DNA of 64,000 nucleotides from the NCBI GenBank assembly GCA_018268355.1, contig JAFDWR010000004.1, positions 372,404 to 436,403 on the forward strand, given 5' to 3'. Origin of the DNA: Armatimonadota bacterium. GTDB taxonomy: Bacteria > Armatimonadota > Fimbriimonadia > Fimbriimonadales > Fimbriimonadaceae. Positions 59,519-64,000 of this stretch are shown piece by piece; position 1 is the first letter of the stretch; every line of letters starts with the position of its first letter. The notes under the pieces were generated by a model. That model was given only the letters and a program-made list of their open reading frames with translations. It did not search any database and had not been told where the DNA came from. Both the position numbers and the translations under genes were made by a program.

Positions 59519-60927
59519 AGAGGTTTGCGCTGAAGTTCCGTGAGGGAGGCCTCAAGAAGGGTCACCGATTGGAAGTAGGCAACAATGGCGTCAATGGCAC
59601 GGCTTTCCGCATCAGCGGTCGCCTGTTCACGTTGGTTGAGAAGGAAGAGGCTCGATCCGCCGAGCTCAAACATGATCCGTTCGCCGTTTTCGACTTGGCG
59701 AAGCTGCTCGACCGCCTTTTGAGCCTCGATGGCGCGGGCGTGGGCGAGCTTCACCGCACCGAGGGCGTCGAGCACCTCGTTGGTGATCTGCTGTCGAAGG
59801 CCAATCTCCTCGGCGGCGAGCTTTGCCAACTTCAGCCGCGCGTTGTCGGCCGCGCCGTCCGCCGTGTTCCAGCGGAGCGGGACCGAGAAGAAGATGCCTG
59901 CCTTGTAGGTGCCGCCGATGCCGTTGGTCCCCGGGTCAACTCCGGGCTGGAGGACGAGGTTCCACTGCGGGCGGCGAAGGTTCTTGGCGAGGTCGAGGTC
60001 GAGCTGGAGGATGCGGCGCGAAATGACGATCGCACCGAGCTCAGGTCGGTTGTCGAGCGCGGTCTTGATTGCGGCTTCGGCCTCAAGCGGGAGCGGTGCC
60101 TCGGGGAGGACGAGCCGTGAGGCTTGATCGGTGATCGGGGCGGATTGCGGCCCGGCCTCGCTCATCCAGAGGTAGGTCTGGAGCTTGAGCGACTTCCCGA
60201 GTCGGTCGCGCTCGGCGACGAGCACGTTGGCCCTGCGCTGGCTCACCTGCGAATCCGCTTCGATGATGTCGAGCTTCCGACGCGAGCCCGCCCGCACGAA
60301 GTCGTCGATCTGAACGCGGCGCGTCGCCGCGAGGTCGACGAGGCTCTTCTGCACCCGCAGCTTGTCCTCCGAACCGCGCCAGTCCCAGTAGCTAAGAAGG
60401 CCGTCGCGCATGACGCTGAGCTGGGTGAGGCTGAACTCGAATTCTGCGAGCGGCTCGCCAAGGATGGCCTGCTTTTCGGCGATCGTCTTTTCGTTGACGT
60501 TTCGGTCGCGGCTGAGCGGGATCTTCACGCCGAAGAACCACTCGCCGAGACCTCCCGCCGACGTATTGGGCGACTTCACGCTGCCATCGTTGAACCGCTG
60601 GCCGAGATAGAACTTTGCGCCCGAGCGGGAAAGGACCTCAACGCTCGTCTCCGTGAAGAGGGTGGTAAGGGCTTTGCCGGGGGTCGAGCTGCTGTTATAG
60701 CGCATCGAATCCGCACCGACGCTGAGAACGGGGTCAAACGCACCTCGCTTCTCGCGGGCCTTGGCGATTGCAGCATCGACCGCGATCCGCATGGCGGCGA
60801 GCTTCGGGTGATACGTCCGGATCGCACGCAAGACATCGGCATCCGAAAGCGGCGGTGACGACTGGGCCAACGCCACGGGGGCAACGCATAACAGCGCCGA
60901 GGATGAGATCAGCCAATTCCAGTTCAT
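59515..60927 (-). CDS. TolC-family outer membrane efflux protein
   Basis: 470 residues from ATG 60925-60927. The signal peptide is WLISSSALLCVAPVALAQS. The mature protein begins SPPLSDADVLRAIRTYHPKL and shows two pseudo-repeats with long helices: LSVMRDGLLSYWDWRGSEDK, VRAGSRRKLDIIEADSQVSQRRANVLVAE and LDALGAVKLAHARAIEAQKA, ENGERIMFELGGSSLFLLNQREQATADAESRAI. The two 'R...G..s...l......' motifs are the TolC fingerprint. It is first in the operon with ABC and HlyD, directly downstream of the manganese-type riboswitch. Confidence 0.93.
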   Translation of the reverse strand: MNWNWLISSSALLCVAPVALAQSSPPLSDADVLRAIRTYHPKLAAMRIAVDAAIAKAREKRGAFDPVLSVGADSMRYNSSSTPGKALTTLFTETSVEVLSRSGAKFYLGQRFNDGSVKSPNTSAGGLGEWFFGVKIPLSRDRNVNEKTIAEKQAILGEPLAEFEFSLTQLSVMRDGLLSYWDWRGSEDKLRVQKSLVDLAATRRVQIDDFVRAGSRRKLDIIEADSQVSQRRANVLVAERDRLGKSLKLQTYLWMSEAGPQSAPITDQASRLVLPEAPLPLEAEAAIKTALDNRPELGAIVISRRILQLDLDLAKNLRRPQWNLVLQPGVDPGTNGIGGTYKAGIFFSVPLRWNTADGAADNARLKLAKLAAEEIGLRQQITNEVLDALGAVKLAHARAIEAQKAVEQLRQVENGERIMFELGGSSLFLLNQREQATADAESRAIDAIVAYFQSVTLLEASLTELQRKPL

Positions 60928-61010
60928 CGTAAACTTTATCAATCTACGCGCGATTGTGGCTGGCGGTGGGCAACTTTGACCTCCGACACAGCCCCAATCG
61001 TCGCGACTGT
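60928..61010 (-). promoter_or_regulatory. Expression platform and leader of the TolC operon
   Basis: 83 bases between the riboswitch aptamer and the TolC ATG. CGCGA-(CGA)-TTG can pair with CAATCGCG further on, and ACAG with CUGU, so alternative stems are possible. No U-run terminator and no clear ribosome site directly before the ATG were found. Regulation is therefore more likely at translation or by a non-canonical platform. A -10-like TGTAGAGAT lies just upstream of the aptamer on the minus strand. Confidence 0.45.
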
Positions 61011-61112
61011 TTCGAAAGGTCTCGCTCTTTGAGCCTGGGCCGGGGTCAAATGACCCGTACTGACGACCTGAGGCACCCCGCAACGCAGGGCGAGCTACTC
61101 CCCTAACCCCAA
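61011..61112 (-). promoter_or_regulatory. yybP-ykoY (manganese-sensing) riboswitch
   Basis: On the minus strand the two invariant loops are present. GGGGAGUAGC (plus coordinates 61094-61103) and GCGAGACC (61018-61025) flank P2 (CCCUGC-GUU-GCGGGG). The three-way-junction arm GGUCGUCAGUAC ... CGGCC (arm core 61056-61067) carries the hairpin GGGUCA-UU-UGACCC. GCUC-AAA-GAGC leads into the second loop. The order and spacing agree with the known L. lactis and B. subtilis aptamers, where Mn2+ joins the two loops. P1 looks weak here (AGG/CCU plus mismatches). It ends 83 bases before the TolC start. Confidence 0.88.
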
Positions 61113-61160
61113 TCTCTACAGCAATTCGGGGAAAAGAGTTTCGTGAAATCGGCACCCTTT

Positions 61161-61199
61161 AACAAAAAAAGTCCGGAGGAATTTATTCCTCCGGACTTT
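61161..61199 (-). terminator. Rho-independent terminator of the amidohydrolase gene
   Basis: AAAGTCCGGAGGAA-TTTA-TTCCTCCGGACTTT, 14-base arms, followed on the minus strand by seven T in TTTTTTTGTT. It lies just beyond the stop at 61213. Confidence 0.93.
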
Positions 61200-61212: not shown

Positions 61213-64000
61213 TCAGGGCTTGATCGTGACGCCCGGACGGCCGGTTTCCCAATAGGCCTTGGGTCGTGGCTTGCGGGTCGGCCAAACCTGGTCCATGTTG
61301 CCGCCTTCGTAGACGAATCCGTCCTTCACGACATAGGCGATGCTCGTCGTGTTTCGGATGTTCTCCAGCGGGTTCTTGTCATAGACCACGAGGTCGGCGA
61401 ACTTGCCCGGCTCAACGCTGCCGAGCTGCTTGTGGAGGCCAATCGCCTCCGCGCCGAAGATCGTCGCGCAGCGCAGGGCTTCCATTGGGGTCATGCCGCC
61501 GCTGACGAAGCTCCAGATCTCCCAGTGCGCGCCCATGCCTTGGAACTCACCGTGGCTGCCGAGGCAAACCCGGCCGCCGGCTCGGACGACCTTGGCGCAG
61601 CTCGCGGCAACCTTGTCGAACACGTACTCTTCGGGCATGAACCACTTGTCGCGGCGTCGAACGAGGTTATCGAGGAGGCGCGGCGGAATGAACTTCTGCA
61701 CCCTCGGATCGTTCGCGGGCAGCTCCTTGTGGAAGTAGTAGTTCTCGCCGAACGGCCCGCCATAGGTGACGAGCAGGGTCGGCGTGTAGTACGTCTTCGT
61801 TCGGGCAAGGAACTGGGCCATGTCGTCATTCAGCGGAATGAGCGGCAGGGCGTGCTCGTGGCCGGAGTAGCCGTCCATGATCTCGGTGAGCGCCATCTTG
61901 ACTTCAAGCGCGCCTTCCGTCGTCGGCGTGAGGCCGAGCTCTTGGCAAGCAAGGGCGATGTTCTGGCGGGCGAGGCGGTCACCGGCAACGTACTCCTTGA
62001 TGAACCACGTCTGATAGGCCTCGCTGTATCGCTTCAGGTAGGTCACCGCTTCGGCCTTGGTGTCCGAAGGGGTGCCGCTGAAGACGCCAGGGCCGGTCGT
62101 GTAGATTCGCGGACCGATCGAGCTTCCACTTTCAATGCTGTCGGCGAACTCATAGATGCCGGTGCTTCCCGATTGAGGGTCGCGGTTGGTGGTGACGCCA
62201 AAGGCGAGGTTGGCGAGGTAGCCCCAGCTTTGCGGATAGCCCAGGGCGTCGTTGCCAAACCAGTGGCTGTGGACGTCGACGTAGCCCGGCGAGATCGTCT
62301 TCCCGCGCATGTCCATCACGGTGGTGCCTTCAGGGACGGCAAACGAACCCTGGGCTCCGACCGCTTGGACGCGGTTGTTGACGACGAGGATGTCGCCCTT
62401 TTCGATGACCTGGTCACCCTTCATCGTGATGACGCGAGCGCCGCGAAGGAGCAGGTTGCCCTTGGCCACCGCGCGGGGCTGTTCGATCGTGATGTCCCAG
62501 ACCTTTGGCTTCTCCTCGTTCAGCGCTTGGCGGAAGAGCTTGGAGCCTTGCGTCCAGTAGATCGCGTCGCCCTGGGCGGACCATTGCGGCGAATCGTTGC
62601 CTTCGGCGGTGATCACCTTGCTGGAGAAGGGGCCGTAGTCGGTCGCGAGCGGGGTCGGACCACCAACCAGCGGTCGGTCGAGCACATAGAGCTTGCCGGT
62701 GCCGGTTGCGGCAAGCACGTGGTTGCCGGTGGGCGAAAGAACGGGGAAGCTGCCGCCGAGCTGCACCTCTTCTCGCCGATCGTAGCCGTCAAGGCGCGCG
62801 CTACCCACTCCCGAGAACGAAGAGTAGTAGAGGCGGTTCGAGCCCTTCACGAAGGTGAATTGTCCGGCGTCCTCAATCGCGATGTCCTGGGGGTCGCCGC
62901 CATAGACCGACATGATCTTGGTTTCCGACGTCCCGATGGGGCCGCGGCCACCGATCTCGCGCAGGCGGTCGGCGAGCATCTCCTCGGGCGACTGCTCAAG
63001 GCACTTGTGGTTATCGATGTGGATGACGGTGTCGAGGCCGTCTTCCTTTGAGCCTTGGGTGAAGATGATCTGCTTGCCGTCGGGCGTGAAGGTCGGAGTG
63101 TTGAAAGTGCCGAGCGCCCAGGTGAGGCGGGTCGTTTCGCCGGTCTCCACATTGGCGCGGTAGATCGCGCCTCCGTTCGGGCCCCACGTTGCATAAGCGA
63201 GGGACTTTCCATCCGGGGACCAATTGGGCGAGAACTCCGTTTGGTCATCCTTCGTCACGCGCACGGGCTTTGCGCCGTCCTTCAGCTCCTGGGTCCAGAG
63301 CCGACCAAAGGCGCGGAAGGCAACTCGGGTGCCGTCGGGGGAGACCACGGCATCGCGCAGGAATCGAGCGCGCACCATCGGCGACTCGTTCACCTTGTGC
63401 TCAAAGTAAACCGAGTCGTTGACGAGCTGGTTGACCTTCGCGCTGAACGGGATCGGCGTGTTTTGGCCCGTCGCGATGTCGATGCGCTGGATCTTGCCGT
63501 GCAGGTTGATGATCAGCGACTTGCCGTCCTTGGTGATCGCGTAGCCGGGGATAGTGTCGCGGGTTGCGCGGGACTCTTGGTCGTCGCGGTCGATCGGGAA
63601 GGCGAGCCAGCGCTCTTCGTTCGTCTTTAGGTCGCGAAGAACGAGGCCGGTTTGGGTCTTCTCGCGGGTGGCATAGATGAGCGACTTGCCGTCGGGCGTG
63701 ATCATCGGGCGCATCGCGCTACCGAGGGCACCCGTGATCGACTTCGACTTTCCGGTCGTGCGGTCGAGCTTGTACACCTGCCACATCGGGAACTGGGCAT
63801 CGTAGGTCCATGCTCCATCGCGCATCGCGAAGTAGATCGAATTGCCGTCGGGCGAGAAGGTCGCGCCCATGCTGTTGGTGCGACCCGAGGGCAGGCCGAT
63901 GGTGGTTCCGGGGCCGCCTTTCGTGTCGATGAAGACCAACTTGTAAATCGGAAGGTAGCCCGAACCCTTGCTCGCCACGACGTAGCGTCCGTCCGGACTC
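61213..64000 (-). CDS. Beta-propeller (WD40/PD40-like) plus amidohydrolase protein, 5' end outside the window
   Basis: At least 929 residues; the frame is still open at the right edge (reading SPDGRYVVASKG), so the start is missing. The N-terminal 500 residues hold TolB-like PD40 units (FSPDGNSIYFAM, MITPDGKSLIYA, WSPDGKSLAYATWG, FTPDGKQIIFTQG, LSPTGNHVLAATG). From about 520 onward an amidohydrolase domain follows: LLRGARVITMKG, GKTISPGYVDVHSHWFGN (HxH metal site), GVTTNRDPQSG and LGSHGEFQGMGAHWEIWSFV. The end has EPGKFADLVVYDKNPLENI. Such fusions are exported metal-dependent hydrolases acting on amide or ester bonds of peptides or related compounds. A strong terminator follows. Confidence 0.92.
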   Translation of the reverse strand, partial: SPDGRYVVASKGSGYLPIYKLVFIDTKGGPGTTIGLPSGRTNSMGATFSPDGNSIYFAMRDGAWTYDAQFPMWQVYKLDRTTGKSKSITGALGSAMRPMITPDGKSLIYATREKTQTGLVLRDLKTNEERWLAFPIDRDDQESRATRDTIPGYAITKDGKSLIINLHGKIQRIDIATGQNTPIPFSAKVNQLVNDSVYFEHKVNESPMVRARFLRDAVVSPDGTRVAFRAFGRLWTQELKDGAKPVRVTKDDQTEFSPNWSPDGKSLAYATWGPNGGAIYRANVETGETTRLTWALGTFNTPTFTPDGKQIIFTQGSKEDGLDTVIHIDNHKCLEQSPEEMLADRLREIGGRGPIGTSETKIMSVYGGDPQDIAIEDAGQFTFVKGSNRLYYSSFSGVGSARLDGYDRREEVQLGGSFPVLSPTGNHVLAATGTGKLYVLDRPLVGGPTPLATDYGPFSSKVITAEGNDSPQWSAQGDAIYWTQGSKLFRQALNEEKPKVWDITIEQPRAVAKGNLLLRGARVITMKGDQVIEKGDILVVNNRVQAVGAQGSFAVPEGTTVMDMRGKTISPGYVDVHSHWFGNDALGYPQSWGYLANLAFGVTTNRDPQSGSTGIYEFADSIESGSSIGPRIYTTGPGVFSGTPSDTKAEAVTYLKRYSEAYQTWFIKEYVAGDRLARQNIALACQELGLTPTTEGALEVKMALTEIMDGYSGHEHALPLIPLNDDMAQFLARTKTYYTPTLLVTYGGPFGENYYFHKELPANDPRVQKFIPPRLLDNLVRRRDKWFMPEEYVFDKVAASCAKVVRAGGRVCLGSHGEFQGMGAHWEIWSFVSGGMTPMEALRCATIFGAEAIGLHKQLGSVEPGKFADLVVYDKNPLENIRNTTSIAYVVKDGFVYEGGNMDQVWPTRKPRPKAYWETGRPGVTIKP

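Follow-up and report, generated by a model that had tools for sequence, protein, structure and literature searches.

Riboswitches of the yybP-ykoY class are known to act on the genes of MntP, TerC/YkoY-type proteins, P-type ATPases and UPF0016-type transporters, and their crystal structures present a four-way junction with a P4 hairpin. Type I secretion systems, for their part, export proteins that bear a C-terminal signal and whose genes usually lie close by. The classical yybP-ykoY design is a Mn-ON antitermination switch in which the helix P1.1 is stabilised by Mn2+ (PMC6754395, PMC11087558), and an invariant adenosine of loop L3 has been assigned a role in contacting the metal (PMC6754395). 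The types of bacterial manganese exporter listed in 2026 are CDF, MntP, UPF0016, P-type ATPase and TerC proteins (PMC13274385).

The element described here, on the minus strand of the window (the whole stretch of 64,000 nucleotides that was analysed), is a real manganese riboswitch of this known class, presumably binding Mn2+, with a new kind of target: the operon of a TolC-ABC-HlyD exporter. This riboswitch, which heads the tolC-abc-hlyD mRNA, probably works as a translational ON switch, and the exporter likely carries a larger product. The coordinates of the features discussed are collected in Table 1.

Table 1. Features of the riboswitch-operon locus and of related sites in the order.
Feature	Position	Strand	Basis or remark
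Preceding amidohydrolase gene	61213-63999	(-)	
Terminator of the preceding gene	61164..61199	(-)	AAAGUCCGGAGGAAUAAAUUCCUCCGGACUUUUUUU; hairpin and T run, perfect inverted repeat 61168-61199
Candidate ECF-type promoter	61116..61142	(-)	GAAAC 61142-61138, 17 nt, TGTAG 61120-61116; weak match, putative
yybP-ykoY (Mn2+) aptamer	61013..61108	(-)	50.4 bits with the covariance model R2 (E 6e-11; model positions 1-90 of 90)
L1 loop motif	61094..61103	(-)	GGGGAGUAGC; columns (nearly) invariant in an alignment of 25 leaders
L3 motif GUCGUCA	61061..61067	(-)	A61061 invariant in the aligned leaders
3′ side of L1, P1.2 and P1.1	61018..61025	(-)	GCGAGACC
Predicted competing hairpin	60978..61021	(-)	GACCUUU 61021-61015 with GGAGGUC 60984-60978; unconstrained MFE fold
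Possible 9-codon leader ORF (UUG...UAG)	60944..60973	(-)	read from the sequence; putative
TolC-type outer membrane factor, 470 aa	59515..60927	(-)	ATG at 60927; PF02321 OEP, E 1.6e-27
ABC exporter (permease and ATPase), 604 aa	57704..59518	(-)	PF00005, E 1.1e-28
HlyD-type membrane fusion protein, at most 564 aa	56064..57758	(-)	PF13437 HlyD_3, E 8.9e-14
HtpX site	L022:607-1452	(-)	
Further HtpX sites	L095, L096, L101, L104, L107, L108, L111, L115, L117, L125, L131, L135-L137, L139, L141, L143, L144, L028, L038		
Zn_ribbon_TFIIB ORF just before terC	L109, L097, L102, L103 and others		

The Aptamer and Its Class

The minus-strand element is a yybP-ykoY aptamer. From 5′ to 3′ it reads GGUUA GGGGAGUAGC UC (P2 hairpin) GCCUCA GGUCGUCAGUACG (P3.2 hairpin) CCGGCC CAGGC UCAAAGA GCGAGACC UUUCG, so that the two loop motifs and the GUCGUCA arm, which the original prediction had recognised with the helices in their proper order, are indeed found where they had been placed. 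The interval 60928-61112 assigned to the riboswitch in that prediction contains the aptamer but is wider than it and also takes in the expression platform. P1.2 joins 61095-61092 to 61027-61024, and P1.1 joins A61104-G61102 to C61019-U61017; in the window this last helix has three pairs only, adjoined by two U-U mismatches. Of the features of membership, L1 with its 3′ side, the L3 adenosine (in GUCA), and P1.1, P1.2, P2, P3.1 and P3.2 backed by covariation are present. We take A61061 to be the counterpart of the Mn2+-contacting A41 of Lactococcus lactis and A48 of Xanthomonas oryzae.

The Rfam model RF00080, for which a score above threshold had been proposed as support, gives the aptamer 14.2 bits against a cut-off of 45; the expected support thus failed to appear, even though this is the model's top match across the whole 2.7 Mb genome. 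An Rfam gathering score is a detection threshold and stands outside the definition of the class. Besides, RF00080 passes its cut-off in none of the 113 genomes of the order, including those in which the aptamer lies directly before TIGR03718 Alx/TerC genes, and the threshold is therefore uninformative here. With a loose sequence pattern, copies turned up in 25 of the 113 genomes, against nine with the reversed control pattern, and many of these copies precede TerC genes (one representative reaches 405.7 bits with TIGR03718 R_switched_Alx, whose cut-off is 246). Since RF00080 passes nowhere and such copies stand before TerC genes, the form of the class in this lineage is a compact one, under-scored by Rfam.

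For this form a lineage-specific covariance model, R2, was built from 20 TerC, HtpX and ATPase leaders, the TolC-operon leaders being excluded from training. It replaced a first model, R1, whose automatic structure had no P1.2 and misdrew P2, by one with an explicit structure. In the window R2 reaches 50.4 bits (E 6e-11 in 171 kb, 9e-10 genome-wide), the sole match in that genome; on all six TolC leaders it scores 38-59 bits out of sample, and its matches in the order number 68, spread over 56 of 113 genomes. The class is thus under-annotated in the order, where the Rfam model passes in no genome at all.

Over 65 distinct aptamers, 94% of the pair cells in the helices are standard and double changes occur in 20 of the 24 pairs; none of 500 shuffles reaches these values, and structures slid along the alignment are 24-50% paired. 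This alignment leans to the model's structure, and the changes in P1.1 and P1.2 are also visible in an unfitted MAFFT alignment. A chance resemblance to the aptamer, to which the sub-threshold RF00080 score could be ascribed, is practically negligible as an explanation: the pattern GGGGAGTAGC / GTCGTCA / GAGACC has a single match in the window and none in 100 shuffles, orthologous leaders conserve the aptamer, and the match to the independent R2 model together with the covariation refutes the idea.

It might also be supposed that the fold is real and that its ligand has changed to another divalent ion or a metabolite, because L3 is slightly unlike the solved examples and because most aptamers of the order, that of the window among them, have no P4 (an extra hairpin is seen in the leaders of G025, G027 and G032 and in the ATPase leader L027). 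Most of L1 and the Mn2+-contacting adenosine are, however, invariant in the set, and Alx/TerC genes are preceded by the same RNA, so that a change of ligand appears very improbable.

The Operon and Its Surroundings

The two flanks of the aptamer had been described correctly: upstream, the preceding gene is closed by a hairpin (61199-61168) and a T run, and downstream the operon encodes a TolC/OEP protein, an ABC permease-ATPase and an HlyD protein. It spans 60927-56064, its genes overlapping end to start, with abc overlapping tolC by 4 nt. The N terminus of the TolC protein is signal-peptide-like, and the ABC protein has no peptidase domain. The true start of hlyD is probably inside the ORF, since the orthologs start later.

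A pattern GAAAC-N15-18-CGTT[AG] resembles an ECF sigma promoter, from which transcription would begin close to the aptamer's 5′ end. It lies just upstream of 9 of 66 aptamers, in the same place before the TolC orthologs of G025, G027, G032, G022 and G023, the last two without an aptamer, and before several HtpX aptamers. The loci with it, besides the window, are L089, L090, L091, L088 and L092, and the HtpX sites L111, L115, L131 and L135-L137. Counting both strands, it has one match in the 64 kb window. Such a promoter upstream of TolC and HtpX leaders would fit an input from envelope stress; in the window it is weakly matched.

The Expression Platform

In the unconstrained fold, the 3′ strand of P1.1 is predicted to pair with a downstream sequence in a competing hairpin that would sequester GGAGG and open P1.1. 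This hairpin has no U run, for which reason a terminator-type platform was rejected for the window leader. Elsewhere in the order, a terminator with a U run overlaps the 3′ strand of P1.1 in 44 of 59 non-TolC leaders (shuffled mean 0.24), but in none of the six TolC leaders; the weak R2 matches L151 and L152, which have no L1 motif, were left out of these counts. In the six TolC leaders, GACCUUU, GACUUU or the continuation of the strand is complementary to a Shine-Dalgarno-like (G)GAGG 43-61 nt downstream. This pairing of P1.1 with GAGG suggests a translational Mn-ON switch in all six.

Without Mn2+, the P1.1 strand GACCUUU would pair with GGAGGUC and the ribosome-binding region would be closed. 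Mn2+ would dock L1 on L3, stabilise P1.1 and free GGAGG, upon which tolC and the overlapping abc and hlyD could be translated. The exporter would then be made under manganese excess, as expected for the TerC/Alx proteins, HtpX and P-type ATPases of relatives. The predicted leader folds have -75.6 kcal/mol when free and -74.0 kcal/mol with the aptamer enforced, close values between which ligand binding could bridge the gap. In the enforced fold most of GGAGG is still paired with other sequence and its accessibility is not clearly raised; this part of the mechanism therefore rests on the conserved complementarity.

The distance to the start codon also deserves attention. In G017 and G024, and likewise in G025, G027 and G032, a UUG start that opens a signal-peptide-like sequence comes 10-11 nt after GAGG, while in the window about 52 nt separate GGAGG from the annotated AUG. 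A possible leader ORF begins 6 nt after GGAGG and ends 1 nt before an in-frame UUG of tolC. Coupling between the two is thus possible and would explain the longer spacing in the window as compared with its relatives.

With a P1.1 of three pairs, and with orthologous operons in G022 and G023 that have no aptamer, it could be argued that the element is vestigial or weak as a switch, having been copied before the operon recently and with a P1.1 too short to regulate. This seems improbable: among the six leaders, which fall into three sequence types, neither loop and no helix has been lost and compensatory changes are seen, and the complementarity of P1.1 to GAGG is kept in every one of them. The leaders of G025, G027 and G032 read GAGUAAC and GUGAGACU, and in P1.1 and P1.2 both sides of the pairs concerned have changed together from G-C to A-U. 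This speaks for selection to keep the fold in the TolC leaders themselves.

Conservation and Origin of the Pairing

TolC-ABC-HlyD orthologs with the same gene order are present in 8 of the 113 genomes of the order, the ABC proteins being 50-54% identical. A search of relatives for the same pairing, which the original prediction had suggested, bore it out: the aptamer lies directly upstream in six of the eight operons, in two genera and three gene neighbourhoods, and not directly upstream in G022 and G023. The upstream neighbour is the amidohydrolase gene in the window and a ClpX-like gene in G017 and G024; in G025, G027 and G032, rhomboid- and nitroreductase-like genes lie upstream and QueC/QueE-like genes downstream (names read from translations, except for the amidohydrolase).

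The ABC family itself is widespread, in Acidobacteria, Bacteroidota, Planctomycetes, Obscuribacterales-type cyanobacterial relatives and Myxococcota. No aptamer was found at 80 related ABC loci from other phyla, nor do the TolC relatives from the phylum's other orders have one. Because G022, G023 and the relatives outside the order do without the aptamer, the exporter works without manganese control elsewhere. The simplest account is that an old exporter operon apparently came under manganese control within Fimbriimonadales, where it captured the riboswitch. As a separate observation, the ABC ortholog of G023 (L088:6228-8018, in an operon without aptamer) starts with a His-rich stretch, MATLHEEHEHLAHDEH, that is possibly metal-binding.

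Other Switched Targets in the Order

The first gene after the 68 sites is TerC/Alx in 30 cases, HtpX in 20, a P-type ATPase in 5, TolC in 6 and another gene in 7, two of these last being doubtful. G017 and G024 each have the aptamer before a TerC operon as well as before a TolC operon; in G000, G025, G027 and G032 the TolC operon is the only R2 match.

HtpX, a M48 membrane protease, is often followed by a Zn-ribbon ORF and TerC, and no listing of it as a yybP-ykoY target was found in the literature searched. It co-purifies with a TerC protein of Bacillus subtilis in MeeF/MeeY pull-downs (PMC10550928), and the link of HtpX with the aptamer and TerC may therefore be functional. Many sites encode a small Zn_ribbon_TFIIB protein (PF13453, about 90 aa), its ORF either separating terC from the aptamer or following htpX; it precedes the TerC/Alx gene at 20 of the 30 TerC/Alx sites and is a possible partner of TerC. 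Single aptamers lie before the genes of a beta-carbonic anhydrase (L146) and a universal stress protein (L132), and before an ion-channel gene that comes after a Zn-ribbon ORF (L110).

Cargo and Function of the Exporter

As related bacteria keep the pairing, the pump is probably part of how the cell responds to manganese excess. Its ABC subunit is nearest to the NCBIfam models NHLM, LssB, HlyB and MsbA, in all cases below cut-off, and the nearest structures are ABCB-type; this ABC type is common to exporters of peptides, proteins and lipids. ABC, HlyD-type and TolC-type subunits are encoded in one operon, as in type I secretion, and the scores stay under the NCBIfam cut-offs of that system (TIGR01846, 211 of 726 bits; TIGR01843, 78 of 209; TIGR01844, 23 of 225). 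The most likely job would be to move a larger product of the manganese or envelope-stress response across both membranes, and the first-choice cargo would be a peptide, a protein or a lipid produced or required in such stress.

Direct extrusion is the main alternative and a possible one: the riboswitch would be the same, and the tripartite ATP-driven pump would export Mn2+ or a manganese chelate as a further class of manganese exporter. The other switched targets are mostly manganese transport genes; the genome of the window has no MntP or UPF0016/GDT1 and a single short TerC, its TolC operon being the sole switched target; and the ORF lists of all eight genomes contain no evident cargo gene beside the operon. 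On the other side, the ABC protein is of the peptide, protein or lipid exporter type, the genome also holds one CDF protein and two E1-E2 ATPases, and the exporter is kept in relatives without the switch. We regard direct manganese export as unlikely on balance, although it is the most serious competitor. A shade more doubtful is the fuller version, in which a Mn2+-induced, ATP-driven pump spanning both membranes moves Mn2+ or a manganese complex, represents an undescribed class of exporter and was recruited by riboswitch capture in Fimbriimonadales. Export of a larger product under control of a translational Mn-ON switch is the preferred reading.

Comparison with Known Systems

That a TolC-ABC-HlyD machine is not among the known targets, as originally proposed, agrees with the literature searched: among mostly open-access papers, none was found in which both yybP-ykoY and HlyD occur, nor any joining Fimbriimonas with a riboswitch, and an earlier mention may exist elsewhere. 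As the Rfam cut-off misses the class across a whole order, the list of known targets is probably incomplete. With this locus, one of the commonest metal riboswitches gains a tripartite ABC exporter among its targets, and the export machine is tied to a defined signal (Mn2+).

Type I secretion systems (HlyB/LssB-HlyD-TolC) and NHLM-type exporters share with this operon the three genes for an ABC protein, a membrane fusion protein and an outer membrane factor, and supply the best NCBIfam models for its ABC subunit; they differ in that the subunits of the window fall below those cut-offs, have no peptidase domain and adjoin no recognisable cargo gene. The TIGR03718 R_switched_Alx/TerC leaders of the order carry the same aptamer family and co-occur with TolC leaders in G017 and G024, but mostly overlap a terminator through P1.1, whereas in the TolC leaders the P1.1 strand can pair with GAGG and the U run is missing. 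With the yybP-ykoY class at large (RF00080; L. lactis yoaB, B. subtilis ykoY, Escherichia coli mntP and alx), the locus has in common the L1 and L3 sequences, the invariant L3 adenosine, the helices P1.1, P1.2, P2, P3.1 and P3.2, the position in the 5′ leader and the use of P1.1 as the switch helix; it differs in its compact form without P4, in its low score on the Rfam model and in its target, a TolC-ABC-HlyD export operon.
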